In this document: one piece after another, positions 2,746 to 51,063 of the stretch
Numbering within the stretch: the stretch's first letter is position 1
How the letters are laid out: each line of letters opens with the position of its first letter
DNA from: Flavobacterium chryseum
GTDB taxonomy: Bacteria; Bacteroidota; Bacteroidia; Flavobacteriales; Flavobacteriaceae
Assembly (NCBI RefSeq): GCF_004362015.1
Contig: NZ_SNWW01000004.1
Coordinates: forward strand, 1 to 64,000
Length of the DNA: 64,000 nucleotides
Direction: 5' to 3'
The notes under the pieces: generated by a model
The model's input: the letters and a program-made list of their open reading frames with translations, nothing else
What the model was told of the DNA's origin: nothing
Databases searched by the model: none
Translations under genes and position numbers: made by a program

Positions 2746-3189
2746 TTAAAGATTCTTTTTTACTAATAATAAATGATCGCAAACGAGAACGACTTCACCT
2801 TTTTGATTGATAATTTCAACATGTTCGGTAACTGTTCCCATATCTGGTTTTTTAGCTTCTCCTTTTTCTGAAATGGTGATTTCTGAATGAATGGTATCAC
2901 CAATATGAACCGGTTTTACAAATCGCATACGATCATATCCTTTAGAAAAAGCTTCCGGATTAATTTCAGATGCTGTTAAACCAATACCAATACTAAAAAC
3001 CATAGTTCCATGAGCGATGCGTTGACCGAAAGGTTGAGTTTTACACCATTCCTCATCCATATGATGTGGAAAAAAGTCTCCTGTATGTCCTGCGTGAACC
3101 ACAAAATCAGTTTCTGTAATGGTTCTGCCTAATGTAACTCTTTTATCATTAAGCTGATAATCTTCAAAAAAGGTGGATTTGAAATACAT
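2746..3189 (-). CDS. MaoC-fold hydratase/dehydratase
   Basis: Single hot-dog domain protein of 147 residues, no signal peptide, so cytosolic. MaoC-like enzymes usually add or remove water on enoyl-/3-hydroxyacyl-CoA thioesters. The family core [13 protein letters not shown] is present and gives the catalytic pair Asp38 and His43 (numbered from the ATG at 3189), followed by IAHGTM. The Asn normally two residues after the Asp is replaced by Phe, so substrate handling may differ. The in-frame ATG at 3249 would add 20 residues coded by a repeat-like AATTGTGAATTGTAAATTGTGA stretch, so the start at 3189 (MYFKSTFF) is preferred. It shares an operon with two CoA-transferases, which suggests it acts on a CoA thioester that they make. 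That link is inference. Confidence 0.82.
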
Positions 3190-3295
3190 ATATTTTAATT
3201 GTGAATTGTAAATTGTGAGATTTATTTTAAAAGTCAGTTGGTTTTGCATTCAATTTTTAAAAACTATTAAACTTCTGACTTATAACATTTAACAT

Positions 3296-4357
3296 CTAAC
3301 TTAATAAAATGCCTCCGTTTTCATTGCTGATGTAACAGGCTTCAACTACTTTCATGGTATCTAAAACGTCTTGCACACTCGCTAATAATTTTTGATCTGA
3401 ACCTTCTTTATAGGGCATTAGGTTAGACATTGTTCCGATAAAAGCTTCCGGAAACCATGAGCCTTCGAGTTTTATTTCTTTCCATTCATATTTGCCTTCT
3501 TCATTCTCAACTGCGTATTCAAAAATGTCAGGCAAACCGTCAGGATAATTCATTAATAATCCCATCTTAGCTTTAATGGCGCCTTTTGTTCCTTCCCATT
3601 TAATGTAACTTTCTTCATGTTTCGGCCCAAAATGATGATCATGATTGGTATTTATAACGACGTGTTTGGTTTCTCCATAATCTAAAATAATAGTCGATCG
3701 GCTGGAGGATAACTTTTTTAGTGGATGTTTTGCTGTTTTTGCCATCACACTTTTTGGATTTCCCAGAAATGAACGTATGCAATCGATATAGTGAACACTA
3801 TGAAAAAGAATTTCTAATCTTGGGTGTTCCTTAATAAGAGGAAATAATTCCCACGGTGTATTAACAGTGACTTTAAATTCTAAATCATATAATTCGCCAA
3901 TGATTCCTTCATTAATTAAATATCTTGCTGAGCTCACGAAAGAGGCAAAACGCAATTGAAAATTAATAGCAGCGACCAAATTTTTTCTCTCACAAACAGC
4001 AACAATTTCAAGAGCTTGAGCTAAATCATTTCCCATTGGTTTTTGAATTAGCACTGCAGCACCATCAGGAAGCTGTTCTAAAATCTCAATATATTGATCA
4101 GGAAGAACAGTAATATCATATACAGCATTTGATGGAGCATTTTTTACTGCATCGGTAACAGATTCAAAAACATGTGCTATTTTAAATTGCTTAGCCAAAT
4201 CATGTGCCTTGGAAATAGTTCTGTTTGTAATACCGAAGACAGTAAATCCAGCCATTTCATAAGCAGGTAAGTGGGCATCTTTTACAATACCACTCGCACC
4301 AATAATAATGATGGGCTGATTTGTTTCCGGTAATAATGGTTTATATGGAATATTCAT
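3296..4357 (-). CDS. Gfo/Idh/MocA family oxidoreductase
   Basis: Cytosolic NAD(P)-dependent oxidoreductase of 353 residues, normal for the family, which oxidises or reduces hydroxyls of sugars, inositols and sugar acids. The N-terminal Rossmann fold shows IIIIGASGIVKDAHLPAY (the usual GxGxxG is altered to GASGIV), followed by the QKPMGNDL motif that replaces the common EKP and supplies the conserved Lys. The C-terminal half is the alpha/beta substrate domain. Its ATG is one base away from the stop of the upstream solute-binding gene, so the two are co-translated or tightly coupled. Substrate is unknown. In this operon a sugar acid or its derivative is a reasonable guess. Confidence 0.85.
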   Translation of the reverse strand: MNIPYKPLLPETNQPIIIIGASGIVKDAHLPAYEMAGFTVFGITNRTISKAHDLAKQFKIAHVFESVTDAVKNAPSNAVYDITVLPDQYIEILEQLPDGAAVLIQKPMGNDLAQALEIVAVCERKNLVAAINFQLRFASFVSSARYLINEGIIGELYDLEFKVTVNTPWELFPLIKEHPRLEILFHSVHYIDCIRSFLGNPKSVMAKTAKHPLKKLSSSRSTIILDYGETKHVVINTNHDHHFGPKHEESYIKWEGTKGAIKAKMGLLMNYPDGLPDIFEYAVENEEGKYEWKEIKLEGSWFPEAFIGTMSNLMPYKEGSDQKLLASVQDVLDTMKVVEACYISNENGGILLS

Positions 4358-4358
4358 C

Positions 4359-5582
4359 TTAAATAATTTTTTGAATCGTATTTTGAGTTTCCTCTAATAA
4401 ATTTTTAGACTGAATGTCGCTTTCTATCGCTTTCAAAACCATTTCATCTATCAACGCTGCAACTTTTGGCCAAACCGGAGTTTGTGGTAAGGTTAAAGCA
4501 TTTTCGTGAAGCATTTCAAGTTTATGATAAAACGGAATAGTTTTGTTTATTTCCACATCATTCCAGGTTGATTTTCTGCAGCCAATTCCTCCTTCATTCG
4601 TTAGTAATTTATCGCTTTTTGCTGTGGTTGCAAATCTTAAAAAATCGTAGGCAAGTTCTTTGTGCTTGCTGCCAATGCCAATTGTATACAGCCAATAAAC
4701 ATTCAAAGAAGCCGTTTTATGGTTTTTATCAAACGGAAGTTCCGTGATATCTACTTTGCCTTTTACTTTCGATTCTTCGATTATTTCACACATCGATGCA
4801 AATCCAAACCAATTAATTGCCATTGCCGCTTCTCCTTCGGCGAAAGCCATTCCAGCTTCAACAGAACCAAATTTTTTAGATTTCGGATGAACAGCTTTTT
4901 CATTATTTACAATTGTTCTGTAAAAATCTAAAGCTTCAATTGCTGCACTTTGATTAATATTAATCTGATTTTGGACATCTACTAATGATCCTCCACGTGT
5001 CCATAATTGAAGGCAAAAATCAAAAACCATATTATGTCCGTCCGGATAATTTGCAAAAACACAACCGTAAAGATTCTGATCAGGTCTATTAAAAAACTCG
5101 GCTATTTGAGCAAATTGTTCCCAGGTTTTCGGGGGATTTAATTCATAACCAAACTGATTTTTAAAATTTTCTTTTTCGGCTAAATCTTCAAATAAATCTT
5201 TTCTAAAAATTAAGCATTCAGGGCCATCGTGAAATGGCAGTCCGTAAGTGCTGTTTTTTATTTGTTGTAAATGCAATAATGATTGGTGCCAGCCTTCAGG
5301 ATAATCCTGAGGTGGATTTTGATTAATAAATGATGTTAAATCAAGCACCGCTTTTTCGTTGGCGGCATCAAATATCCAATCGGTATTAATATGTGCAATA
5401 TCCCAGGTTCCGTTTTTCAAACCTTTTTTCGTAATCGTTTCTTCATAAAGATTATGCAATTCTAAAGGAACCATTTCAACCTCAATAGAAACATTATTTT
5501 TAAGGCAAAACAAATCCCAAAGCTTTTGAAGCGTACTTTCAAAAGGATCAAACTTTCTAACAGCTATTCGTAATTTTCCCAT
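4359..5582 (-). CDS. Solute-binding-protein fold, no signal peptide (type 1)
   Basis: The 407-residue protein has the layout of a MalE-type periplasmic binding protein: two alternating domains with TYGLPFHDGPECLIFRKDLF near 115-135, PKTWEQFAQIAEFF near 155, and a late WPKVAALIDEMV helix. Unlike every transport binding protein, it begins directly with the first domain strand (MGKLRIAVRKFDPFE) and has no signal peptide or lipobox. No ABC permease or ATPase gene is found anywhere in the window. Its start codon overlaps the stop of the CoA-transferase gene at 5582 by one base (TAATG), a sign of translational coupling. A cytosolic binding partner or sensor for a CoA-transferase substrate is one reading. 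An undetected upstream start is excluded because the CoA-transferase frame occupies that region. Confidence 0.8.
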   Translation of the reverse strand: MGKLRIAVRKFDPFESTLQKLWDLFCLKNNVSIEVEMVPLELHNLYEETITKKGLKNGTWDIAHINTDWIFDAANEKAVLDLTSFINQNPPQDYPEGWHQSLLHLQQIKNSTYGLPFHDGPECLIFRKDLFEDLAEKENFKNQFGYELNPPKTWEQFAQIAEFFNRPDQNLYGCVFANYPDGHNMVFDFCLQLWTRGGSLVDVQNQININQSAAIEALDFYRTIVNNEKAVHPKSKKFGSVEAGMAFAEGEAAMAINWFGFASMCEIIEESKVKGKVDITELPFDKNHKTASLNVYWLYTIGIGSKHKELAYDFLRFATTAKSDKLLTNEGGIGCRKSTWNDVEINKTIPFYHKLEMLHENALTLPQTPVWPKVAALIDEMVLKAIESDIQSKNLLEETQNTIQKII

Positions 5583-6721
5583 TATATAGCTATAAATTCT
5601 TTAATGATTTTCTCGTTGTCTTGTCCTAATTTTGGAGAGCCTTTACCAGAAGTTAGATATTCTCCATCTATTTTAATCGGGCATCTTGTTGTTTGATAGG
5701 AATAGCCATCTAACATTTGAACTTCTTGTGTAAAATCTAAAATTTTAAATCCTTCTTCAGCAAAAAGCTCTTGATAGTTTAAAACTCCGGCGCACCAAAT
5801 GTCAGCAGGTTCTAAAATACTCAACCAAAAATCTGTATTTTGAGTTTGTAAATGTGTGGCTAAAATATTTTTAATTTCATCTCTTAAATGGAATTTGTTC
5901 TCCGGAAATTGCAATAAAGCGTCACATTTTAAAAGCGAAGCCAAAACAGGAATCGAGCCCATTGCCAAAGCTAAAAAGCCATTGTTGGTTTTATAAATTC
6001 CGTAAGGCGCACCCAAATAAGCGTGAGCATTATTAGTTTTGGTTCGAACAGGCAATTCTCCTCCGTCATTAAAAAAAGTAGTGATGGTTTCAAACTGAAA
6101 ATCGAAAGCAGATTCTAACATACTTACCTGAACAGAAGCTCCAATATTATGTATGGCTTTTCGATATAAAGCCGCTAAAATTCCCTGAGCCAAATGCGCT
6201 CCGGCCAACATATCAACAATTGACAAGCCCATGGGTACCGGGCCATCGTCCTGATTGCCACTTAACCAGGTTAAAGCTGTTAAGGATTGCAACAATAAAT
6301 CTTGTCCCGGTAAATCTTTTAAATCAGGGTGATTTCCAAAACCCGAAATCGAAGCATAAACAATAGTTGGATTAATTACTGCAACATCTTCATAACTTAA
6401 ACCTATTCGTTCCATAACTCCTGGTCTGAAATTATGCATGACTACATCGGCCTTTGCTAATAATTTTTTTAATTTCTCGAGTTCTTCGGCTTGCTTAAAA
6501 TCTATGGCAAAAGATTCTTTATTTCTGTTAATGGTATGAAAAACAGAAGATTCTCCATTCATAATCAAGTCAGAAGTATATAAAGTTCTGCAAATATCTC
6601 CAGTTCCCGGTTTTTCAATTTTTATAACGCGCGCGCCCAAATCAGCCAATCGTAAACTTGCTGAAGGACCTGAAAGAAACTGACTAAAATCTACTATTAA
6701 ATAATCTTCTAATGGTTTCAT
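5582..6721 (-). CDS. CaiB/BaiF family CoA-transferase (copy 1)
   Basis: Class III CoA-transferase of 379 residues that should move CoA from one acyl-CoA to a free carboxylic acid in the cytosol. It shows the family N terminus (DFSQFLSGPSASLRLADLGA then RVIKIEKP), the HNFRPGVMERIGL motif at 96-108 and the catalytic Asp170 in SIVDMLAG. Length is close to the family norm of about 400. It is a clear paralogue of the next gene, sharing the first residues MKPLE, FHTINRNKESFA, PGQDLLLQSL and the same Asp position, so the two arose by duplication and may form a heteromer. It is flanked by 1-base and 2-base junctions to its neighbours. The acid substrate is unknown. The context of sugar-acid enzymes suggests a sugar-derived acid rather than carnitine. 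Confidence 0.9.
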   Translation of the reverse strand: MKPLEDYLIVDFSQFLSGPSASLRLADLGARVIKIEKPGTGDICRTLYTSDLIMNGESSVFHTINRNKESFAIDFKQAEELEKLKKLLAKADVVMHNFRPGVMERIGLSYEDVAVINPTIVYASISGFGNHPDLKDLPGQDLLLQSLTALTWLSGNQDDGPVPMGLSIVDMLAGAHLAQGILAALYRKAIHNIGASVQVSMLESAFDFQFETITTFFNDGGELPVRTKTNNAHAYLGAPYGIYKTNNGFLALAMGSIPVLASLLKCDALLQFPENKFHLRDEIKNILATHLQTQNTDFWLSILEPADIWCAGVLNYQELFAEEGFKILDFTQEVQMLDGYSYQTTRCPIKIDGEYLTSGKGSPKLGQDNEKIIKEFIAI

Positions 6722-6723
6722 TC

Positions 6724-7869
6724 CTATTCGTTTAAAAATTGTTCATGTATTTTCACATTATCTTCCCCAACTTTTGGAGCTGCTTTTATGCTTGTTAAAA
6801 TTTTCCCGTCAAGCTGAATTGGACTTCTGGTTGTTATTATTTTTTTTCCAGCAGAATTCTGAACAGTTTGTTTCAATTCCAATTCATTCACAAAAGATTG
6901 ATTGTCTAATTCTTCATAATTGAGAACTTTTCCAGACCAAATTCCTTCTTTTTGAAGTAAACTCAACCAATAATCAGATTTTTGAGTTGACAATTGTTCA
7001 CTTAATAGTACTCTGATTTCATCTCTTTTTTCAAACCAAAGCTGCTTGTCAGCATACTTTTGTAAAGCAACGCCCAGCGTATTTCCAATAAAAAGTAAAT
7101 CTCCCATGGCCAGAGAAATATAACCGTCTTCAGTTTTGTATATTCCGTATGGAGCGCTAAGAAAAGCGTGCGCACTTCCTTTAACATCGCCTCTTTCCGG
7201 CAACTGTCCGCCATCATTTAAGAAAGAAGTAATTGCTTCAAATTGTACATCTAAAACAGATTCTAACAAACTTACTTCGACCAAAACTCCTTTTCCGGTT
7301 TTGGCTCTTTTCAGTAAAGCCGCTAAAATTCCCTGTACAAAATGATTTCCGCACATTAAATCGGCTACAGCCAGACCAAACGGAATCGGACCCTGACTTT
7401 TTCTGCCGCTTAACCAACTCAATCCTGAAAGCGATTGCAATAATAAATCTTGTCCTGGTTTTTTTGCCCACGGACCAATAGTTCCGTAACCAGTAATCGT
7501 TCCGTATATTATTTTTGGATTAATAGATAGCGTTTCACTGAAATCTAAACCTATTTTTTCCATTACGCCAGGTCTGAAATTATGTGTCATAATATCTGCC
7601 TTGGCAATTAATTTTTTTATTAAAATTAAATCATCTGGGTTTTTAAGATCAGCCGCAAATGATTCTTTATTTCTGTTAATAGTGTGAAACAGCAAACTGC
7701 TCTCATCAACAAAAAGATCTTTTATACTAAGTTGCCTGCAAGCTTCGCCTTTTACGGGGCGTTCAATTTTAATGACTCGCGCGCCTAAATCAGCTAATTT
7801 TAGCCCGGCAGAAGGTCCCGCCAAAAACTGGCAGAATTCTAAAACAACTAATCCTTCTAATGGTTTCAT
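6724..7869 (-). CDS. CaiB/BaiF family CoA-transferase (copy 2)
   Basis: Second class III CoA-transferase (381 residues) with EFCQFLAGPSAGLKLADLGA, RVIKIERP, HNFRPGVMEKIGL and the catalytic Asp170 in LAVADLMCG. Both copies keep all visible active-site elements, so neither looks degenerate. It ends 2 bases before copy 1 and begins inside the stop of the following binding-protein gene by a 4-base ATGA overlap. The order binding protein - transferase - transferase - binding protein suggests duplication of a transferase/binding-protein module with rearrangement of one pair. The role is presumably activation of a carboxylic acid as its CoA thioester for the MaoC-fold enzyme downstream. Donor and acceptor are unknown. 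Confidence 0.9.
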   Translation of the reverse strand: MKPLEGLVVLEFCQFLAGPSAGLKLADLGARVIKIERPVKGEACRQLSIKDLFVDESSLLFHTINRNKESFAADLKNPDDLILIKKLIAKADIMTHNFRPGVMEKIGLDFSETLSINPKIIYGTITGYGTIGPWAKKPGQDLLLQSLSGLSWLSGRKSQGPIPFGLAVADLMCGNHFVQGILAALLKRAKTGKGVLVEVSLLESVLDVQFEAITSFLNDGGQLPERGDVKGSAHAFLSAPYGIYKTEDGYISLAMGDLLFIGNTLGVALQKYADKQLWFEKRDEIRVLLSEQLSTQKSDYWLSLLQKEGIWSGKVLNYEELDNQSFVNELELKQTVQNSAGKKIITTRSPIQLDGKILTSIKAAPKVGEDNVKIHEQFLNE

Positions 7870-9014
7870 GTGGTTTGCAAGTTTAAAGACTTCGTATAAA
7901 GTGAGTTCATTTCTTCTAAAACTAATTCTTCGTTTCCGCCCTTCATCAAATAATCACGAACAACATCGCCGGCATGATCCTGAAAATACATATGTCCGGA
8001 ATATCTTGGGCGTAAAAATGCTCTTTCTAAAGTGGGTAAAGTATTTTTGAAATAGTCATTGGTTAAAGCATTAATTCGGTTACTTTTCCATGCCTGTAAG
8101 TGACCCGGTTGTCCGCCATTATCAGCGAATATATTTTGCTGAACCTGAGATGATCCCGTAAATTCAGCATATTTTATAGCTTCGGGAATGTTTTTATTAA
8201 AAGAAGAAACAGCCAATCCGGTTCCGCCCAAAGAGCTAATCATCGGATTATTGTTTAAACGAACCAAATCATAAAAATGAAGCAAATTTTTACTGTAACC
8301 TGTTCTTGAATAATTAGAATATCCGTAAGCAAAAGGGCAATAAGCAATTTCGTCAGAATTTACCATCGCTTCATAAACCTGAATTGGGTTCCGGTTAAAA
8401 TTAGCTGGATTTATTAGTTGAGCCAATTCTCTAAACATCTGCAAAGCCTTTTTTCCAGTTTCAGCAGAAATCACTTTTTCGTCAGATTGAAAAGGAGCTT
8501 CGCCAAGGCTGCAGCAAAACATATAAAGACTCATTAAAACATCAACAGGAATTCCGGCAAAAGCCACTAATCCTTTTTTAGCCAAAGCCAATAAATCATC
8601 ATAAGTTTCAGGAACTTTCAATCCTTGTTTTTCCAGAATATCCAAACGTGCCGAGGCAACCGGAGTAGCAGCGTCAATTGGTAACGCCCATAATTTATTA
8701 TGAAAAACATAACTTCCGTAAGAGCGGCCAACTGTATTTATTTCCTGGTCCTTTATATATGCTGTCGATAAATAATCAGATAGAGGAAGGATTGCATTTG
8801 TTTGCGCTCCAAAGCCTGTCCACGGATGATCAATTACCAAAAGATCAAATCGTTTTGCTAAATCTTCGATAGAAGCATCGGCAAATTCCTGTAAACTTCT
8901 TTTCTCCCAGGTAATCTCAATATCTGGATTAAGTTCTGTAAACCGCTGTGCTGTAGCAACCATTGGCAACAAACCTCTTGTGTGATTCCAGGTAATCCCT
9001 TTTAGTAGCTTCAT
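7866..9014 (-). CDS. Solute-binding-protein fold, no signal peptide (type 2)
   Basis: First gene of the minus-strand operon. The 382-residue product resembles family 1 extracellular binding proteins (TAQRFTELNPDIEITWEKRS near 22-41, FDLLVIDHPWTG near 57-68, ALPIDAATPVASARLDIL near 114, a late YAEFTGSSQVQQNIFADNGG). It begins MKLLKGITWNHTRG, which is domain sequence, not a signal peptide. It is only distantly similar to the protein at 4359-5582. A 4-base overlap couples it to CoA-transferase copy 2. With two such proteins, two transferases and no ABC transporter genes, a transport role is unlikely. A substrate-delivery, sensing or enzymatic role in the cytosol is inferred. The promoter is recognisable 62-91 bases upstream. 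Confidence 0.8.
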   Translation of the reverse strand: MKLLKGITWNHTRGLLPMVATAQRFTELNPDIEITWEKRSLQEFADASIEDLAKRFDLLVIDHPWTGFGAQTNAILPLSDYLSTAYIKDQEINTVGRSYGSYVFHNKLWALPIDAATPVASARLDILEKQGLKVPETYDDLLALAKKGLVAFAGIPVDVLMSLYMFCCSLGEAPFQSDEKVISAETGKKALQMFRELAQLINPANFNRNPIQVYEAMVNSDEIAYCPFAYGYSNYSRTGYSKNLLHFYDLVRLNNNPMISSLGGTGLAVSSFNKNIPEAIKYAEFTGSSQVQQNIFADNGGQPGHLQAWKSNRINALTNDYFKNTLPTLERAFLRPRYSGHMYFQDHAGDVVRDYLMKGGNEELVLEEMNSLYTKSLNLQTT

Positions 9015-9075: not shown

Positions 9076-9105
9076 CAAAAATAGAAATAAGATTGACTTG
9101 AACAA
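9076..9105 (-). promoter_or_regulatory. Promoter of the binding-protein/CoA-transferase operon
   Basis: On the minus strand a TTG (9105-9103) is followed after 19 bases by TATTTTTG (9083-9076), a full match to the Bacteroidota -33/-7 pattern TTG-N17-23-TAnnTTTG. The start of transcription would fall near 9069, about 55 bases before the first start codon. Confidence 0.7.
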
Positions 9106-9336: not shown

Positions 9337-10101
9337 ATGTTTTCATTAAAAAATAAAAAAACAGTTGTTACCGGCGGAGGCAGCGGAATAGGAAGAGCAA
9401 TTGCTACTTTGTTTGCAAAACAAGGAGCAGAAGTGCATATTATAGATTTATCACTTGAAAGCGCACAAGAAACTTTAGACGAAATTAAAAAAGCTGGAGG
9501 AACTGCCTTTTCGTATGCCTGTAATGTAGCTGACCAGAAAGAAGTTGTTGCAACATTTGAAAAAATCGGCAACATTAATATTCTAATCAATAATGCAGGA
9601 ATTGCAAATGTTGGAAAAGTAGATACCACAGCAGAAGCTGATTTTGATCGTGTTATGGATGTAAATGTAAAAGGCGTATACAATTGTTTGTTTGCGGCGA
9701 TTCCACAATTTAGGCTCTCAAATGGTGGCGTAATTATCAATATGGCATCAATTGCGGCGTGGGTTGGTATTCCGGATCGTTTTGCTTATTCAACAGCAAA
9801 AGGAGCCGTTATGGCAATGACATTATCTGTTGCAAAAGATTACATAGGAGAAAATATTCGTTGCAATTCTATTTCTCCGGCAAGGGTTCACACTCCTTTT
9901 GTTGATGGTTTTATTTCGAAAAATTACGCTGGAAAAGAAGCCGAAATGTTCGAAAAATTATCACAATCACAACCTATTGGCAGAATGGGAAAACCAGATG
10001 AAATTGCAGCGTTAGCATTATATTTATGCAGCGACGAAGCAGGATTTATAACCGGCTGCGATTACCCAATCGACGGAGGATTTATCAAGTTAAATAACTA
10101 G
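9337..10101 (+). CDS. SDR, 2-keto-3-deoxy-L-fuconate/rhamnonate 4-dehydrogenase-like
   Basis: Classical short-chain dehydrogenase of 254 residues, cytosolic. The NAD site TGGGSGIG (12-19), NNAG, and the catalytic Tyr151-x3-Lys155 (AYSTAKGA) are present. The stretch SPARVHTPFVDGFISKNY and the tail CSDEAGFITGCDYPIDGG are typical of the dehydrogenases that oxidise C4 of 2-keto-3-deoxy-6-deoxyhexonates in the non-phosphorylating L-fucose and L-rhamnose routes. That assignment is supported by the next gene, which encodes the matching diketo-acid hydrolase. It is the first gene of the plus-strand operon. NAD versus NADP use and fucose versus rhamnose stereochemistry cannot be decided here. Confidence 0.85.
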   Translation: MFSLKNKKTVVTGGGSGIGRAIATLFAKQGAEVHIIDLSLESAQETLDEIKKAGGTAFSYACNVADQKEVVATFEKIGNINILINNAGIANVGKVDTTAEADFDRVMDVNVKGVYNCLFAAIPQFRLSNGGVIINMASIAAWVGIPDRFAYSTAKGAVMAMTLSVAKDYIGENIRCNSISPARVHTPFVDGFISKNYAGKEAEMFEKLSQSQPIGRMGKPDEIAALALYLCSDEAGFITGCDYPIDGGFIKLNN

Positions 10102-10266
10102 AAAAGGTACTAAGGTTCTGAGGTGCTAAGATGCTACGGTTTTTATACTTAAAGTCTTAGTTACAATGGAACTGGCAACTTAAAAAATGAATAAAAAAGG
10201 AGCTAAGGTTCTAAGATACTAAGAGTAAAAAAACTTAGAACCTCAGGACCTTAGCAACTTAGAACC
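10102..10266. repeat. Intergenic palindromic repeat (AAGGTTCTAAG type)
   Basis: Blocks such as ACTAAGGTTCTGAGGTGCTA and GGAGCTAAGGTTCTAAG are followed by the inverse form CTTAGAACCTCAGGACCTTA. The 179-base gap before the FAH-family gene is almost filled by this low-complexity family. No gene is seen. Confidence 0.7.
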
Positions 10267-10280
10267 TTAAAAAATAAAAT

Positions 10281-11135
10281 ATGAAATTAATACGTTTTGG
10301 AGAAATCGGAAAAGAAAAACCAGGAGTTTTAATTGGTGAAAAAAGATATGATGTTTCATCAATCGTTTCAGACTTTAACGAAAGTTTTTTTGAAGAAGAC
10401 GGTTTAGAGAAATTACAAAAAGCATTAGAAAGTAATCCCACTTTGCCAGAAGTCGATTCAAGTGTACGTTTGGGATCTCCTGTTGCGAGACCTTCGAAAA
10501 TAATATGTATCGGTTTAAATTATGTAGATCATTGCAAAGAAACCGGAGCGCCAATTCCGACAGAACCAATCATCTTTTTTAAATCAACAACTTCATTATG
10601 CGGGCCTGACGATGATGTAATTATACCTAAGAATAGTGTAAAAACAGATTGGGAAGTGGAACTGGCATTTGTAGTAGGTAAAAAAGCGAGTTATGTAGAT
10701 GAAGCAGAAGCTTTAGATTATGTTGCGGGTTACGCTTTATTGAATGATTACAGCGAAAGAGAATTTCAAATCGAGCGCGGCGGACAATGGGCAAAAGGTA
10801 AAGGATGCGACACATTTGCTCCTCTTGGACCCTTTTTGGCGACTAAAGATGAAGTAAAAGATGTTGATAATTTATCGATGTGGTTAACAGTTAATGGTAA
10901 AAAATATCAGGACAGTAATACGCTGAATTTAGTTTTCAAAATTCCATATTTATTACATTATTTAAGCCAGTTTATGACGTTGCTTCCTGGCGATATTATC
11001 AGTACAGGAACGCCTCCGGGAGTTGGACTTGGTATAAAACCAGATCCGATTTACCTAAAAGCCGGCGATGTTGTAGAACTTGGAATTGAAGGTTTGGGTA
11101 CAAGCAAACAAACTGCAGTAGCATACAAAAAGTAA
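10281..11135 (+). CDS. FAH-family hydrolase, 2,4-diketo-3-deoxy-L-fuconate/rhamnonate hydrolase-like
   Basis: Metal-dependent hydrolase of the fumarylacetoacetase fold, 284 residues, cytosolic. In the non-phosphorylating 6-deoxysugar pathways it splits the 2,4-diketo acid into pyruvate and L-lactate. The metal ligands are visible as Glu125 and Glu127 in DWEVELAF and Asp156 in LNDYSERE. The CIGLNYVDHCKETG segment at 76-89 and GDIISTGTPPGVG near 245 are also typical. Members are often mislabelled ureidoglycolate lyase. The placement between the keto-deoxy acid dehydrogenase and a zinc dehydrogenase gene supports the sugar-acid role. Confidence 0.86.
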   Translation: MKLIRFGEIGKEKPGVLIGEKRYDVSSIVSDFNESFFEEDGLEKLQKALESNPTLPEVDSSVRLGSPVARPSKIICIGLNYVDHCKETGAPIPTEPIIFFKSTTSLCGPDDDVIIPKNSVKTDWEVELAFVVGKKASYVDEAEALDYVAGYALLNDYSEREFQIERGGQWAKGKGCDTFAPLGPFLATKDEVKDVDNLSMWLTVNGKKYQDSNTLNLVFKIPYLLHYLSQFMTLLPGDIISTGTPPGVGLGIKPDPIYLKAGDVVELGIEGLGTSKQTAVAYKK

Positions 11136-11154
11136 TTAAAAAGAAAATTCTAAG

Positions 11155-12168
11155 ATGAAATTTATTGTATGCGAAAAACCGCAGGAATTTAAATTAAAAG
11201 AAAAACCAATACCCGAACCAAAAGAAGGTGAGGTATTGTTAAAGATAAAAAGAATAGGAATTTGCGGAACTGACATTCACGCTTTTGGCGGAACTCAGCC
11301 GTATTTTGAATACCCAAGAATTTTAGGTCACGAACTTGCTGCAGAATATGTAAAAGGAAATGTAAAAGGTTTTGAACCAGACGATAAAGTAACTTTTATT
11401 CCGTATTTTAATTGCGGAAAATGTGTCGCTTGTAGAAACGGACTCACCAATTGCTGCGTAAATATAAAAGTTTTCGGAGTTCATATTGATGGTGGAATGG
11501 CCGAATATGTTACGATTCCGGAGCAATATTTATTGCACGGTCAAGGTCTTGATTACGATCAATTGGCATTAGTTGAGCCTTTGGCAATTGCGGCGCACGG
11601 AGTACGAAGAGCTGCGGTTACTGCAAATGATACTGTTTTGGTAATGGGTGCCGGACCAATTGGTATCGGATTGATTCAGTTTGCAAAAATTGCCGGAGCA
11701 AAAGTTATAGTAATGGATATTAACGATTACAGATTAAACTTTTGCAAAAACGAATTGAATGCTGATGCAACCATAAATCCGTTAAACGAAGATGTAGCAC
11801 AAAGATTAGCAGAAATTACCAATGGCGACATGGCAAATGTTGTGATTGATGCAACCGGAAACCAAAAGGTAATGAATAGTGCTTTTAATTATATTTCGCA
11901 TGGCGGAAGATTTGTTTTGGTTGGACTTCAAAAAGGAGAATTGAGTTTTAGTCATCCCGATTTTCACAAAAGAGAATCGACTTTAATGAGCAGCAGAAAT
12001 GCAACAATTCAGGATTTTGAATATGTAATGGAATGCCTGAAAAACGGAAAAATAGATCCTAAAAAATACATTACGCACAGAACCAGTTTTTCAGAAATGA
12101 TTACCGATTTTGGACAATTAATTGATCCGAAAAATAATGTAATTAAAGCATTAATAGAATTAGAGTAA
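11155..12168 (+). CDS. Zinc-dependent alcohol dehydrogenase, sugar-acid type
   Basis: Medium-chain dehydrogenase of 337 residues. Catalytic zinc ligands Cys37 (GICGTD), His59 and Glu60 (GHE), and four structural-zinc cysteines at 87, 90, 93 and 101 are all present. The nucleotide fold starts at VLVMGAGPIGIG. It resembles the threonine/L-galactonate/sorbitol dehydrogenase group. It is encoded 19 bases after the FAH gene, so it is co-transcribed. Two SDRs already cover the two oxidations of the fucose/rhamnose route, so this enzyme may handle an additional pectin sugar or acid, or lactate/lactaldehyde-type products. Substrate is not readable. Confidence 0.85.
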   Translation: MKFIVCEKPQEFKLKEKPIPEPKEGEVLLKIKRIGICGTDIHAFGGTQPYFEYPRILGHELAAEYVKGNVKGFEPDDKVTFIPYFNCGKCVACRNGLTNCCVNIKVFGVHIDGGMAEYVTIPEQYLLHGQGLDYDQLALVEPLAIAAHGVRRAAVTANDTVLVMGAGPIGIGLIQFAKIAGAKVIVMDINDYRLNFCKNELNADATINPLNEDVAQRLAEITNGDMANVVIDATGNQKVMNSAFNYISHGGRFVLVGLQKGELSFSHPDFHKRESTLMSSRNATIQDFEYVMECLKNGKIDPKKYITHRTSFSEMITDFGQLIDPKNNVIKALIELE

Positions 12169-12186
12169 CGCTTTGCGTATTGTTAT

Positions 12187-12340
12187 TTTAAACACATAGA
12201 AACATAGATTTTAAAATAAGCAATGAAGATGATTTTTAGAAAATCAAGATTTTTTCACATAGTAAAACTATGAGATTTATTTGAAGTGAAACGACTTTTT
12301 TTAAGCTATGAAAACTATGTTTCTATGTGTTAAAAAATAT
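12187..12340. repeat. Long imperfect palindrome (ACACATAGAAACATAG)
   Basis: AACACATAGAAACATAG at 12191-12207 is repeated in inverse at 12315-12331, with further weak pairing inside (CATAGTAAAACTATG near 12256). This fills the 208-base gap between the dehydrogenase genes. Probably a palindromic intergenic repeat rather than a regulator site. It could fold in the transcript and lower expression of the genes after it. Confidence 0.7.
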
Positions 12341-12376
12341 TTACAGCTATTGATAAATCTCAAATAACCACAACAA

Positions 12377-13174
12377 ATGGATTTAAATTTAAAAAATAAA
12401 ATTTTTGTCGTGTCGGGTTCGGCAGGAAAACAAGGCAGTATTGGAGAAACCATTATTAACCGAATTGCAGATGAAGGTGCGATTCCGGTTTTAGTTGACA
12501 GAAACAGCAGAGGAGCAGATTATGCAACAGCATTTCAAAAAAGAGGAATCGATTCTTTATTTGTAGAAACAGATGTGACTGATCCAATCGAAATTGAAAA
12601 TGCAGTTAAAAAAATCGTTGAAAAATACGGAAGAATTGATGCCGTAATTAACAATGTTGGAGTAAATGACGGTGCAGGTTTAGATTCAAGTTATGAAGAG
12701 TTCATGAATTCTTTGAAACTAAATGTAGTGAGCTATTTTTTAATGGTTAAATATGCACTTCCATATCTAAAAGAATCAAAAGGAAATATTCTAAATATTG
12801 GTTCAAAAGTGGCTTTAACCGGGCAAGGCGGAACTTCAGGATATGCGGCTGCGAAAGGCGGAGTTTTAGGACTAACCAGAGAATGGGCGGTAGATTTAAT
12901 TCAATACGGAATTCGTTCGAATGCGATTATTATTGCAGAAAGTTATACTCCGGCATACGAAGACTGGATTGAAACATTACCCGACGGCGAAGCGGTTTTA
13001 AAAAAAATCAATAAAAGTATTCCGTTTGAGGGAAGAATGACCAAAACAGAGGAAATTGCAGACACAGTACTTTTCATAATTTCAGATCGTTCATCGCACA
13101 CAACAGGGCAATTTGTTTTTGTTGATGGCGGATACGTGCATTTAGATCGCGCTTTAATCAACGATGTAAATTAA
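12377..13174 (+). CDS. SDR, L-fucose/6-deoxysugar dehydrogenase-like
   Basis: Short-chain dehydrogenase of 265 residues with an altered nucleotide loop (SGSAGKQGSIGE at 14-25 instead of TGGxxGIG), NNVGVNDG in place of NNAG, and the catalytic Tyr156-x3-Lys160 (GYAAAKGG). It likely oxidises C1 of a free 6-deoxyhexose to the lactone, because the next gene, 6 bases on, encodes the matching lactonase. Alternative substrates are other pectin sugars such as L-galactose or L-arabinose. The reaction type is well supported by the gene pair, the sugar is inferred. Confidence 0.8.
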   Translation: MDLNLKNKIFVVSGSAGKQGSIGETIINRIADEGAIPVLVDRNSRGADYATAFQKRGIDSLFVETDVTDPIEIENAVKKIVEKYGRIDAVINNVGVNDGAGLDSSYEEFMNSLKLNVVSYFLMVKYALPYLKESKGNILNIGSKVALTGQGGTSGYAAAKGGVLGLTREWAVDLIQYGIRSNAIIIAESYTPAYEDWIETLPDGEAVLKKINKSIPFEGRMTKTEEIADTVLFIISDRSSHTTGQFVFVDGGYVHLDRALINDVN

Positions 13175-13180
13175 AAAATC

Positions 13181-14008
13181 ATGAACCGAATTGATGCACA
13201 TCAACATTTCTGGAAATTTGATCCAATAAGAGATAGTTTGATTGATGATTCAATGCAGAAAATTCAAAGAGATTTTTTGCCCAAAGATCTTTTTCCATTA
13301 CTTCAACAAAATCAATTTTCAGGTTGTGTTGCCGTTCAGGCCAGTCAATCAGAAGAAGAAACGAATTTTTTAGTTGATTTGGCTGCCAAAAATGAATTTA
13401 TAAAAGGAATTGTGGGTTGGGTAGATTTGCGAAATCAAAATATTGAAGAGCGTTTGATTTACTTTTCAAATCACAAAAAAATAAAAGGTTTCAGGCACGT
13501 TGTTCAAGGTGAACCCGATGATTTTATGTTGCGAAAAGATTTTCAAAACGGAATCGCTGCTTTAAAACAATTTAATTACACCTACGATATTCTTATTTTT
13601 CATCATCAATTACCGGCGGCAATACATTTGGTAAACCAGTTTCCTGATCAGTCTTTTGTGGTTGATCATATTGCAAAACCGGATATAAAATCAGGCGATA
13701 TTTTATCCTGGAAAAAAGGTATTTCAACAATTGCAAAAGCTGAAAATGTAATGTGCAAAATCTCCGGAATGGTAACAGAAGCCAATTGGCAATCCTGGAA
13801 ACCGAATGATTTAAAACCTTACTTAGATGTTGTTTTCGAAAATTTTTCTGTTGATAACTTAATGTTCGGATCAGATTGGCCCGTGTGTAATGTAGCTTCA
13901 GATTACACAGAAGTCGTAAAGACTTTAGAAGATTATATTGCTCAATTCTCCGTTCAGGATCAAAATAAAATTTGGTATGAAAATGCCCAATCATTTTATA
14001 AGCTTTGA
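13181..14008 (+). CDS. Amidohydrolase-family sugar lactonase
   Basis: Single TIM-barrel protein of 275 residues (COG3618 type), cytosolic. It opens L-fucono- or L-rhamnonolactone to the acid. It begins MNRIDAHQHFW, with the His-x-His metal/substrate motif at 7 and 9; VVDHIAKP near 165 and FGSDWPVC with Asp232 complete the active site. It is coupled to the SDR gene (6 bases apart) and is the last gene before a terminator. Plain continuation of the route from its product would need a sugar-acid dehydratase, which is not encoded in the window. Confidence 0.86.
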   Translation: MNRIDAHQHFWKFDPIRDSLIDDSMQKIQRDFLPKDLFPLLQQNQFSGCVAVQASQSEEETNFLVDLAAKNEFIKGIVGWVDLRNQNIEERLIYFSNHKKIKGFRHVVQGEPDDFMLRKDFQNGIAALKQFNYTYDILIFHHQLPAAIHLVNQFPDQSFVVDHIAKPDIKSGDILSWKKGISTIAKAENVMCKISGMVTEANWQSWKPNDLKPYLDVVFENFSVDNLMFGSDWPVCNVASDYTEVVKTLEDYIAQFSVQDQNKIWYENAQSFYKL

Positions 14009-16982: not shown

Positions 16983-19499
16983 ATGCGTCTACCTATTCTC
17001 TATAAAATATTTATAGCTTTTTTGATCACCTGTTCCGTATTTTCAGCAACTGCGGGAGAAATTTGGGTTTCACCGAATGGGAATGATAAAAATTCGGGAA
17101 CAAAATCAAGTCCTTTAGCAACCGTACAAATGGCAGTAAGAAAAGCCAGAGAATTGCGACGTCTAAAAGATCCTTCCATAAAAGATGGTATTCATATAAT
17201 TGTAGCAAACGGAACCTATTATTTAAACGAGCCATTATTCATAAGACCCGAAGATTCAGGTACTCCAGAAAGTCCGACAACTATTGAAGCCGATATAAAT
17301 GCAAAACCAATTTTAAGCGGCGGATTAGAAATAAAAAACTGGAAAAAAGCAACATCAATAAATGGTCTAAAAAAAGCAAATGTCTGGGTTGCCGATGCCC
17401 CTCAAAAAGCAGGTGAAATTATCAATTACAGACAATTATGGGTCAACGGAAAAAAAGCTGTTAGAGCCAAAAGCACTGCCGGAAATCAAATGGACCGAAT
17501 TCTTTCCTGGGATGCAGCAACTGAAACGTGTTGGATTCCTTTTAAAGATAAATCCATAAAGTACGAACCCGGAATGGAAATGTTCATCATACAATGGTGG
17601 TCGACTGCAAATCTTCGAATTAAAAATATTGAAGTTCAAAAAGACAGGGCGAGACTTTCTTTTGAACAGCCCGAAAGCCGCATTCAAAGCGAACATCCTT
17701 GGCCGGCGCCATGGATTTCAAAGAATAACGGAAATTCTGCATTCTTTCTAAACAACGGAATCTCCATGCTGAATGAACCCGGCGAATGGTTTTTAGATAA
17801 AAAAAATGCCAAAATCTATTACATTCCAAGAGAAGGAGAAGATTTAAATTCGGCAAAAGTAACAGTTCCTGTTCTCGAAAATTTAGTCGAGATAAAAGGA
17901 ACAATTGATTCTCCGGTTCATCATTTTAATTTTAAAGGAATCTCATTTCAATACAGCAATTGGCTTCGTCCTTCGCAACAAGGTCACGTTCCGTTGCAGG
18001 CCGGAATGTATTTATTAGATGCTTATAAACTAGCAATTCCCGGAACTCCAAATCAGGCGAATCTGGAAAACCAAGGTTGGGTGGGGAGACCACGCGCAGC
18101 TGTTGAAGTCAATTATTCAAATAATATTCAGTTAGAATGGTGTCGTTTCGAACATTTATCTTCAACAGGTTTAGATTTAAATAAAGGAACAAATCACAAT
18201 ACAATCAAAGGAAACTTATTTAAGGACATTGGCGGAAATGCCATTAGTGTTGGTGTTTTCTCTGAAGAAGCTTTTGAAGCTCATTTGCCATTAGTGATTA
18301 AAGACGAAAGAGAAATTTGTTCAGATGAAGTAATTGCAGACAATTTAATTACCAATGTTGCCAATGAAGATTGGGGATGCTTAGGAATTGCCGTTGGTTT
18401 TGTAAAAAATCTTACGATCGAACATAATGAAATTTCGGATGTTGCGTACAGCGGAATCTCGATGGGCTGGGGCTGGACACATACCAAAAACGTGATGGAA
18501 AACAATAAAATAGTGGCGAATAAAATTCACCATTACGCAAAGCATCTTAATGATGTTTCCGGAATTTACACACTTTCATCACAACCAAATAGCCGAATAG
18601 AAGAAAATTATATTGATAAAGTGTATAACAGTCCGTACGCACACGATCCGTTTTTGTGGTTGTATTTGTACACCGATGAAGGAAGTCAGGGTTTTACAAT
18701 CAAAAACAACTGGATTGCGACTGAGAAAATCTTAAAAAACAACAACGGTCCGGAAGGGAATATTTGGGAGGATAATAATCCGTATGTAAGCACAAAAATT
18801 AAAGATGCTGCCGGAATCAGAGAGCCTTACACCGACTTAACAAAAGAAGTTGTAATTGACAAAAACTGGGGTTTACAAGAATTACCAAAATCGGTTGCAA
18901 TAGAATTGATCGGTTCAAATTTTGATATCGAAAAAATTAAATCGACTATAAAAGGTTTTAGAATTGTAGGCGAATCATTGCACCAATGGAAAAATCATTT
19001 AGTGATTTACGGAAAAATGAATCAGCCGGAAAGAACAAAAAAGAAATTGGCTTTGGCTTATCCATCGGCACAAATAAAAATTTACGAAAATCCAATTTAT
19101 GATTTCCAAAATTTTGAAAGATGTAAAGATTCAAAACCGGCATCAGACTGGGAAAATGTTGTTTTGACAGCCAATTTAGTTGACGATCCGAAACTGCAAA
19201 AAGAATATGTAGATTATCACACGACACAATTTGAAAAATGGCCTGAAATCGCAAAAGGATTCTGCAATGCCGATTTTCAGCAATTGCAGGTTTTCAAAAA
19301 TGAAAAACAATTAATGTTGATTATCAGCATTCCAAAAGGAGAAAATCTGGATAAACTAAATCCAAAAACAACCGAAAACAATCCGCGCGTAGACGATTGG
19401 AATGCCTTAATGAAAAAATATCAAACCGGAATCGAAGGCTCAAAACCAGACGAAACCTGGATTTTCCTTAATAAAGTGAATGTAGAAGAGAAGAAATAG
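16983..19499 (+). CDS. Secreted right-handed beta-helix glycosidase, GH141-like
   Basis: 838 residues with a signal peptide (about 1-24, cleavage after TAG or nearby). The mature start EIWVSPNGNDKNSGTKSSPLATVQMAVRKA is the typical first coil of a pectin-lyase-like beta-helix; further coils with NNIQLEWCRFEHLSSTGLDL, NTIKGNLFKDIGGNAIS and NLTIEHNEISDVAYSGISMG follow to about residue 560. A separate C-terminal domain of about 230 residues is unassigned. Family GH141 holds alpha-L-fucosidases acting on rhamnogalacturonan-II and some xylan enzymes. That family fit is by overall layout only. It starts a transcription unit with the shared operator and is followed by an oxidoreductase and a sodium symporter, so the released sugar may be taken up by that transporter. 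Confidence 0.7.
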   Translation: MRLPILYKIFIAFLITCSVFSATAGEIWVSPNGNDKNSGTKSSPLATVQMAVRKARELRRLKDPSIKDGIHIIVANGTYYLNEPLFIRPEDSGTPESPTTIEADINAKPILSGGLEIKNWKKATSINGLKKANVWVADAPQKAGEIINYRQLWVNGKKAVRAKSTAGNQMDRILSWDAATETCWIPFKDKSIKYEPGMEMFIIQWWSTANLRIKNIEVQKDRARLSFEQPESRIQSEHPWPAPWISKNNGNSAFFLNNGISMLNEPGEWFLDKKNAKIYYIPREGEDLNSAKVTVPVLENLVEIKGTIDSPVHHFNFKGISFQYSNWLRPSQQGHVPLQAGMYLLDAYKLAIPGTPNQANLENQGWVGRPRAAVEVNYSNNIQLEWCRFEHLSSTGLDLNKGTNHNTIKGNLFKDIGGNAISVGVFSEEAFEAHLPLVIKDEREICSDEVIADNLITNVANEDWGCLGIAVGFVKNLTIEHNEISDVAYSGISMGWGWTHTKNVMENNKIVANKIHHYAKHLNDVSGIYTLSSQPNSRIEENYIDKVYNSPYAHDPFLWLYLYTDEGSQGFTIKNNWIATEKILKNNNGPEGNIWEDNNPYVSTKIKDAAGIREPYTDLTKEVVIDKNWGLQELPKSVAIELIGSNFDIEKIKSTIKGFRIVGESLHQWKNHLVIYGKMNQPERTKKKLALAYPSAQIKIYENPIYDFQNFERCKDSKPASDWENVVLTANLVDDPKLQKEYVDYHTTQFEKWPEIAKGFCNADFQQLQVFKNEKQLMLIISIPKGENLDKLNPKTTENNPRVDDWNALMKKYQTGIEGSKPDETWIFLNKVNVEEKK

Positions 19500-51025: not shown

Positions 51026-51063
51026 ATTTGTTTAAAAAAAGATTACCCAAATTAAAAATTAGT

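Follow-up and report, generated by a model that had tools for sequence, protein, structure and literature searches.

The first 64,000 nucleotides of contig NZ_SNWW01000004.1 of Flavobacterium chryseum (assembly GCF_004362015.1), hereafter the window, carry a minus-strand operon in which two solute-binding proteins without signal peptides, SBPa and SBPb, are encoded together with two class III coenzyme A (CoA)-transferases, CoAT1 and CoAT2. We tentatively propose, at somewhat less than even probability, that SBPa and SBPb, having left ATP-binding cassette (ABC) transport, bind sugar acids in the cytosol and serve the CoA-transferase. The proposal rests on sequence-level evidence: the absence of an export signal, the binding-protein fold, the failure to find an importer of their own, the conserved operon, the co-occurrence of SBPa with the CoAT pair, and the conserved catalytic aspartate of the latter. 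The occurrence of signal-less binding proteins beside CoA-transferases in distant bacterial groups that consume fucose, rhamnose and similar plant sugars points to an unrecognised step of sugar breakdown.

Organization of the operon

The window is the start of a 443-kb contig in a genome of 5.0 Mb that is 99.96% complete. A first-pass annotation, made by a model from the sequence alone, had described four genes in the order binding protein, CoA-transferase, CoA-transferase, binding protein with junctions of 1, 2 and 4 bases. Re-derivation of the coordinates returned the same four open reading frames (ORFs), all on the minus strand, with a 4-base overlap between SBPa and CoAT1, a 2-base gap between CoAT1 and CoAT2, and a 1-base overlap between CoAT2 and SBPb. 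The order stands, but the unit is longer than four genes: after a gap of 1 base it continues into a Gfo/Idh/MocA family oxidoreductase and then MaoC and FucP, beyond which lies a pectinesterase gene. In order of transcription the operon comprises:

7866..9014, minus strand: SBPa, 382 residues, SBP_bac_1 fold, no signal peptide, first gene of the operon
6724..7869, minus strand: CoAT1, class III CoA-transferase, 381 residues, Asp170 kept at the nucleophile position
5582..6721, minus strand: CoAT2, class III CoA-transferase, 379 residues, Asp170 kept
4359..5582, minus strand: SBPb, 407 residues, SBP_bac_1 fold, no signal peptide, in a clade apart from SBPa
3296..4357, minus strand: Gfo/Idh/MocA family oxidoreductase, 353 residues, the next gene after SBPb in 93 related loci
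2746..3249, minus strand: MaoC-like hydratase, ORF of 167 residues
1329..2675, minus strand: L-fucose:H+ symporter FucP, 360.5 bits to TIGR00885 against a curated cut-off of 280.4, probable start near 2636

Many homologues of the MaoC-like hydratase have about 146-149 residues, and its start perhaps lies near 3189. Its best NCBIfam match was the C-terminal part of PaaZ, far under the cut-off.

Each of the three characteristic families was confined to this operon. Searches of the whole genome gave two matches to SBP_bac_1, two to CoA_transf_3 and one to MaoC_dehydratas, all within the operon, although members below the sensitivity of these searches may exist. Because these are the sole matches in the genome, and because the gene order recurs in several genera, the grouping exceeds what chance would produce.

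Fold and localization of the binding proteins

SBPa and SBPb both matched the Pfam family SBP_bac_1 above its cut-off (E 2.6e-11 and 5.3e-25). The closest solved structures to the AlphaFold model of SBPa (mean predicted local distance difference test score, pLDDT, 93.6; predicted template modelling score 0.90) were maltose/trehalose binding proteins, with MalE3 (6dtq) aligned over 367 residues at Z 38.7 and a root-mean-square deviation (rmsd) of 2.6. The SBPb model (mean pLDDT 84.7) matched 5iai over 387 residues (Z 44.3, rmsd 2.3). Both proteins, for which structure prediction had been suggested in the first-pass annotation, therefore model as ordinary sugar-binding proteins, at 12-22% identity to the solved chains shown. 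Importer binding proteins alone occupied the top ranks of the fold search; a same-fold enzyme family could still exist outside them.

The profile and the two-lobe fold of an ABC importer binding protein were thus present, whereas its export signal or lipobox was absent. The open frames extend to 394 (SBPa) and 413 (SBPb) residues, and the SBPb start codon sits within the CoAT2 stop codon, which leaves no space for a signal peptide. Among 124 SBPa rows (a 125th, L118, has a broken start and was left out here and from the tree described below), the last methionine stood 2-10 residues ahead of the first core motif in 122. A mis-called start masking a signal peptide was rejected on these grounds, as the open frames are too short and the core begins immediately.

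N-terminal hydropathy was compared with a crude scale, the peak over the first 40 residues, rather than a dedicated signal-peptide predictor. Median peaks were 1.11 for SBPa (125 rows) and 0.90 for SBPb (99 rows); the 12 binding proteins used for comparison had a median of 2.36. The lowest comparison rows (L165 and L171, at 0.99 and 1.32) resemble truncated gene starts, and the comparison row L067 adjoins a sensor kinase with no importer, and hence is not a true importer control. Five SBPa rows exceeded 1.8; the four inspected singly (all but L082) were ORFs extended upstream of the conserved methionine. The claim that both binding proteins lack signal peptides is borne out by the short frames, the low hydropathy and, in SBPa, the core that closely follows the methionine, and the sequences support a cytosolic, non-exported location for both.

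In an unrooted tree of 61 rows, SBPa formed one group (support 100/99) and SBPb another (100/97), both apart from the 12 comparison rows, several of which were long-branched. The simplest reading of this tree is that SBPa and SBPb represent two separate recruitments.

The CoA-transferases

CoAT1 and CoAT2 matched CoA_transf_3 across the whole chain (E 3.6e-88 and 3.9e-85). Asp170, at the nucleophile position, was kept in all 226 CoAT rows and aligned with the aspartate of five solved chains from four proteins. By profile and catalytic residue, both belong to class III CoA-transferases. Known class III equivalogs (succinate-glutarate, oxalate and mesaconate) were considered and rejected, the best matches reaching 216.8 of 750 and 182.5 of 522 bits. 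The CaiB L-carnitine CoA-transferase model NF002914 gave 68.1 and 78.3 bits, below its cut-off of 413. Work on YfdE places the covalent site at Asp173, by way of the D177A variant of UctC, and describes an active site that draws its aspartate and histidine from different subunits (PMC3720670).

Conservation in Bacteroidota

One sample of 345 Bacteroidota genomes was searched for SBPa, CoAT and SBPb with differing cut-offs: 1e-3 for SBPa followed by a by-eye cut at 1e-100, 1e-90 for CoAT, and 1e-30 for SBPb. SBPa gave matches in 27 genomes, strong in 19 (E 1e-100 or better) and weak in eight. The weak matches belong to families f16 and f34 (E 1e-6 to 9e-4); as probable ordinary relatives, they were excluded before co-occurrence was counted. 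CoAT was then found, in two copies each, in exactly the 19 genomes with strong SBPa, and SBPb in 13 genomes, all among these 19, leaving six without SBPb; as the genomes are related and the genes linked, these counts are not independent. Two of the weak-match loci served as comparison rows for hydropathy and tree. At one (L068), two ABC permease genes follow; at the other (L067, 8144-12500), the neighbours of the SBP_bac_1-like relative (f16) are a histidine kinase and a sigma-54 response regulator, which suggests a sensor fed by a binding protein.

In one genome the pairing persists although the genes are unlinked. There (G428, loci L062 and L172), SBPa lies about 60 kb from a CoAT1-CoAT2-SBPb-Gfo/Idh/MocA-MaoC operon that lacks it; the detached SBPa adjoins an aldolase/dehydrogenase gene.

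Conservation of the gene order, which the first-pass annotation had proposed as a check, was found in several genera. Junctions were counted at 108 Bacteroidota loci with 104 distinct SBPa (four places were fetched twice), many from Flavobacterium and Pedobacter and so not independent. SBPa was followed by CoAT1 in 103 of the 108, with a gap of at most 5 bases in 95 of these 103. The same gap was seen at 93/94 CoAT2-SBPb, 49/101 CoAT1-CoAT2, 55/93 SBPb-Gfo/Idh/MocA and 0/91 Gfo/Idh/MocA-MaoC junctions. In the family sample, 11 of 13 loci had a CoAT in the stretch (BLAST to the window CoATs, 1e-8), the exceptions being L030 and L031. The closest named SBPa relatives among the matches listed, 94% identical, came from Flavobacterium and a Flavobacteriaceae bacterium.

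Some clusters differed in composition. At L028 (8992-14730), SBPa was 44% identical to that of the window, and CoAT1, CoAT2, SBPb and the Gfo/Idh/MocA protein were 74-82% identical; judged by these identities, it looks as if the first gene alone was replaced. At three further loci (L020, L024 and L025), SBPa-CoAT1-CoAT2 stood near an enoyl-CoA hydratase (ECH) and an AldA-like aldehyde dehydrogenase in place of MaoC and the Gfo/Idh/MocA protein. L020 and L024 were tested for the hydratase and AldA-like genes, and L025 has a RhaT-like symporter. These clusters probably represent a related route for a different sugar.

Occurrence in other phyla and on plasmids

SBPa relatives are encoded in at least 584 stretches of one genome collection. 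Plasmid records matching SBPa numbered 144 at E 1e-30 or better and 148 at 1e-5, mostly from Sinorhizobium and also from Ensifer, Azospirillum, Rhizobium, Roseibium, Labrenzia, Shinella, Streptomyces and others; S. meliloti 1021, a common laboratory strain, carries an SBPa locus. Annotated relatives that were opened bore the labels extracellular solute-binding protein or (carbohydrate) ABC transporter substrate-binding protein, despite having no signal and, in most cases, CoA-transferases as neighbours.

We opened 18 proteobacterial and Streptomyces loci, chosen mostly for their annotation and not at random (L177 was reached through a CoAT match, and the clusters of L168 and L169 are nearly identical). 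A CoA-transferase stood next to signal-less SBPa in 16 of the 18, and within 3 kb in Streptomyces ITFR-6; none was present at the Microvirga locus. MaoC or ECH was likewise present in 16 stretches, the exceptions being Microvirga and S. meliloti, in which it occurs only farther along. In Methylobacterium nodulans the order was MaoC-CoAT-SBPa-AMP-binding protein. In 46 plasmid records with an ECH-type CoAT, checked by eye from the coordinates, SBPa adjoined the CoAT in 28, lay within 3 kb of it in one and was not its neighbour in two; for 15 the position of SBPa was unlisted.

Relatives of SBPb were seen in Croceibacterium and, among haloarchaea, in Halostagnicola larsenii. In the latter, the neighbourhood held a CoA-transferase, a Gfo/Idh/MocA protein, an L-rhamnose mutarotase and an alpha-L-fucosidase. 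On this plasmid (L162) the SBPb relative, part of a cluster of fucose type, is flanked by an AMP-binding protein and MaoC.

Could SBPa and SBPb simply be importer binding proteins, exported by an unrecognised route and served by a permease elsewhere? By fold and family they belong with ABC importer components, and SBPb of Croceibacterium overlaps a permease gene. The first-pass annotation had reported no ABC genes in the window, and a search of the whole genome with the permease model PF00528 agrees, giving two matches, both on other contigs. The first adjoins an ATPase with a NIL domain (MetN type) and a lipoprotein-like ORF; the second was weak (29.3 bits, and unlisted by Pfam at E 1e-5). 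The latter (locus L003) neighbours an ORF that ends, by eye, in an OmpA-like domain. A hidden sugar importer was rejected, as PF00528 revealed no sugar-type ABC permease in the genome; ATPases were not searched genome-wide. Among the 18 opened stretches, 11 contained a complete ABC importer that has a binding protein to itself and three a partial importer, and none was seen in three (two Streptomyces and one Methylobacterium); in S. meliloti an importer lies farther along pSymB. As no signal was detected in the rows examined, importers elsewhere have their own binding proteins, and the operon has its own symporter, we regard the importer explanation as extremely improbable.

Hardly more probable is that a mobile catabolic operon has been co-inherited with binding proteins and transferases functionally uncoupled. 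Its occurrence within Flavobacterium is patchy and many copies are on plasmids, yet the pairing holds across phyla amid varied importers and hydratases, and it persists in the Bacteroidota genome with unlinked genes described above.

Regulators

IclR or LacI genes were present in seven of the 18 stretches opened outside Bacteroidota, and in others. Within Bacteroidota, IclR was identified in seven of ten nearby unlabelled ORFs tested (picked partly by size), as well as at L062 and in Persicobacter. No regulator was found among 16 window proteins scanned with Pfam.

These regulators bear on the possibility that the binding proteins are sensors, buffers or chaperones that retain reactive or toxic sugar lactones or acids in the cytosol, or that they signal to a regulator, without acting on the CoA-transferase. 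The exchange of SBPa independently of its neighbours at L028, and the weak relative beside a histidine kinase and response regulator, are consistent with such a role. IclR proteins, however, possess an effector domain of their own, the scanned window proteins included no regulator, and the constant close neighbour is a CoA-transferase. We consider this explanation improbable.

Probable substrate and the search for a dehydratase

The likely substrate was judged from neighbouring genes. FucP exceeded its curated cut-off, and other members of the family have RhaT-type symporters or alpha-L-fucosidase genes nearby; the substrate is therefore probably an acid derived from a 6-deoxyhexose (L-fucose or L-rhamnose) and not pectin acids generally. 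The first-pass annotation had envisaged presentation of a carboxylic acid for CoA activation, and we infer this as the leading reading here too, with a sugar acid as the carboxylic acid; its suggestion of pectin-derived acids is disfavoured by the same neighbours.

Genes of a matching pathway diverge from the operon:

9337..14008, plus strand: divergent pathway genes, five in number, with no aldonate dehydratase among them
9337-10101, plus strand: short-chain dehydrogenase/reductase (SDR)
10281-11135, plus strand: FAH-family, 2,4-didehydro-3-deoxy-L-rhamnonate hydrolase-like, 379.2 bits, under the curated cut-off of 500
11155-12168, plus strand: Zn-dependent alcohol dehydrogenase
12377-13174, plus strand: second SDR
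13181-14008, plus strand: L-fucono-1,5-lactonase-like amidohydrolase, 257.7 bits, under the curated cut-off of 400

As the lactonase and hydrolase matches fall under their cut-offs, L-fucose or L-rhamnose is probable and not settled.

Searches for an L-fuconate or L-rhamnonate dehydratase among the enolase, IlvD/EDD and UxaA types gave no fitting candidate in the genome; other dehydratase families were not searched. The two enolase-superfamily matches over the cut-off were closest to the racemase/dipeptide-epimerase and MenC models, each under that model's own cut-off. The IlvD of the genome exceeds the dihydroxy-acid dehydratase cut-off, and the UxaA-family gene adjoins UxaC and a mannitol-dehydrogenase-family gene, a neighbourhood that looks like a galacturonate route. 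Since these matches fit other roles, the lactonase-like and hydrolase-like genes are left without a matching dehydratase from these three types.

Proposed mechanism

A cycle that fits these observations can be outlined. SBPa would close on a 6-deoxyaldonate of the L-fuconate or L-rhamnonate type and either dock on the CoA-transferase or pass the acid to it, and the transferase would load CoA. MaoC, or ECH in other clusters, would then remove or add water at C2-C3 of the thioester, after which the transferase would move CoA to the next acid molecule, so that CoA is merely borrowed. An AMP-forming ligase could prime the cycle in two distant clusters, in which an AMP-binding ligase adjoins SBPa (Methylobacterium) or SBPb (Halostagnicola). 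Dehydration of a 2,3-dihydroxy acid as its thioester would yield the enol of a 2-keto-3-deoxy acyl-CoA, which amounts to the aldonate dehydratase reaction by another route. In F. chryseum the cycle may replace an aldonate dehydratase at the step that links the lactonase to the 2,4-diketo-3-deoxy-acid hydrolase, both encoded divergently, and this route would also use the Gfo/Idh/MocA protein as an oxidoreductase. The sugar-shaped cleft of SBPa may supply a specificity that the transferase lacks. In its full form the proposal makes SBPa the substrate-recognition subunit of a new multi-component class III CoA-transferase (SBPb being a second or variant module), which could thereby act on very polar sugar acids. 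With MaoC or ECH as partner, this enzyme would dehydrate aldonates in the form of their CoA thioesters, in place of absent aldonate dehydratases, and the use of MaoC or ECH would track the configuration at C3, the two being R- and S-specific hydratases. This form is more doubtful than the general proposal stated at the outset, and we consider it rather unlikely.

About as unlikely, in our estimate, is that SBPa, SBPb or both are enzymes themselves, catalysing an isomerase, lactonase, dehydratase or thioesterase step in this route and co-transcribed with the CoA-transferases but unbound to them. Enzymes with a binding-protein fold exist, among them MqnA, THI5 and HisG. Polar and aromatic residues were invariant across 31 diverse SBPa, including W9, R13, D57, D62, D114, Y232, Y235, Q292, Q302 and R335; at L030 and in Microvirga, SBPa occurs with ECH or sugar-acid enzymes and no CoAT nearby; and in five loci without SBPb an amidohydrolase gene follows CoAT2. 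On the other hand, the complete architecture of a sugar-binding protein is preserved, the tightest junctions are SBPa-CoAT1 and CoAT2-SBPb, and SBPa co-occurs with the CoAT pair.

Several observations weigh against the view that the binding proteins serve the CoA-transferase. SBPa lacks a CoAT in the stretch at L030, L031 and the Microvirga locus, and a CoAT-ECH pair without SBPa between them occurs in Martelella and Croceibacterium, whose plasmids each also carry SBPa adjoining a different CoAT. No SBPa-CoAT fusion was found in 171 loci; the long ORFs listed, over-extended frames of GC-rich loci, matched one of the two protein kinds each. Distances across 21 loci correlated at 0.69 for SBPa-CoAT1 and 0.66 for SBPa-CoAT2, against 0.93 for CoAT1-CoAT2 and 0.89 for CoAT1-SBPb, and the mirror-tree lends no support to direct SBPa-CoAT contact. 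At L028 a divergent SBPa stands with Flavobacterium-like partners, SBPb of Croceibacterium overlaps an ABC permease gene, and the frequent IclR genes near the operons leave room for a sensing role. The loop histidine of the CoA-transferases was kept in 187 of 226 rows and was asparagine in 36 and glutamine or alanine in three. Finally, enolase-type enzymes, one annotated as L-fuconate dehydratase, lie near alphaproteobacterial CoAT-SBPa-MaoC clusters, so that replacement of a dehydratase cannot apply as such in those bacteria.

Other features of the window

One further feature lies directly upstream of the operon:

9076..9105, minus strand: promoter-like TTG-N19-TAttTTTG upstream of SBPa, a single candidate match to the Bacteroidota-type motif

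Past the divergent genes lie a bifunctional aldolase/dehydrogenase and a GH141 protein. The latter (16983-19499, 838 residues) has an N-terminal signal-like stretch and a C-terminal L-rhamnose mutarotase domain (PF05336), and is thus a secreted glycosidase joined to a mutarotase. Two near-alike secreted proteins, pectate-lyase-like by eye (51028-52767 and 53709-55418), are separated by one small gene and are probably a duplication.

Comparison with known systems

ABC sugar-binding proteins such as MalE3 (6dtq), a trehalose/maltose binding protein (1eu8) and SmoF (7yzs) share the full two-lobe fold with SBPa and SBPb; in the rows shown, alignments spanning almost the entire chain gave Z 35.8-44.3. 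They differ in that SBPa and SBPb have no signal peptide, no fitting permease was found in the F. chryseum genome, and their operon partners are CoA-transferases. Orphan periplasmic binding-protein genes of the Bug/TctC type occur near CaiB-type genes; these proteins are exported and belong to a different binding-protein family, whereas SBPa and SBPb are signal-less SBP_bac_1 proteins.

Benzylsuccinate CoA-transferase BbsEF (9fn0) likewise consists of two distinct class III subunits encoded together, and both window CoATs matched BbsEF chains, but CoAT1 and CoAT2 both keep the aspartate. We know of no binding protein with BbsEF. The non-phosphorylative L-fucose/L-rhamnose pathway resembles the window in its lactonase-like, SDR and 2,4-diketo-3-deoxy-acid hydrolase-like genes and FucP, and differs in that no aldonate dehydratase of the enolase, IlvD/EDD or UxaA types was found in F. 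chryseum. To our knowledge, that pathway has not been described with a CoA-transferase, MaoC or binding proteins.

The closest functional parallel is the carnitine cycle of E. coli. There, CaiB moves CoA back and forth between the products and substrates of the hydratase CaiD, and the CoA derivatives are made by CaiC (PMC2131755). Common to both systems are a class III CoA-transferase together with an acyl-CoA hydratase and, in some clusters, an AMP-forming ligase. The cai genes include no binding protein, and the operon described here has a MaoC-type hydratase (ECH elsewhere), two paralogous CoATs in Bacteroidota and sugar-acid neighbours. By analogy, the operon may work like the CaiB/CaiD/CaiC cycle with an added substrate-binding component, though we do not claim that it belongs to that system.

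The first-pass annotation knew of no described system of this composition, and our search of the open-access literature likewise turned up no account that pairs a cytosolic solute-binding protein with a CoA-transferase. Should the proposal prove true, a metabolic enzyme has taken on a transport-protein fold as its subunit or helper, the breakdown of sugars includes a CoA-dependent branch not recognised before, and many proteins annotated as parts of transporters are mislabelled. The transferases, MaoC and the fold are of known kinds, and the chemistry is possibly a variant of a known cycle; the pairing of solute-binding protein and CoA-transferase matches no system that we can name.

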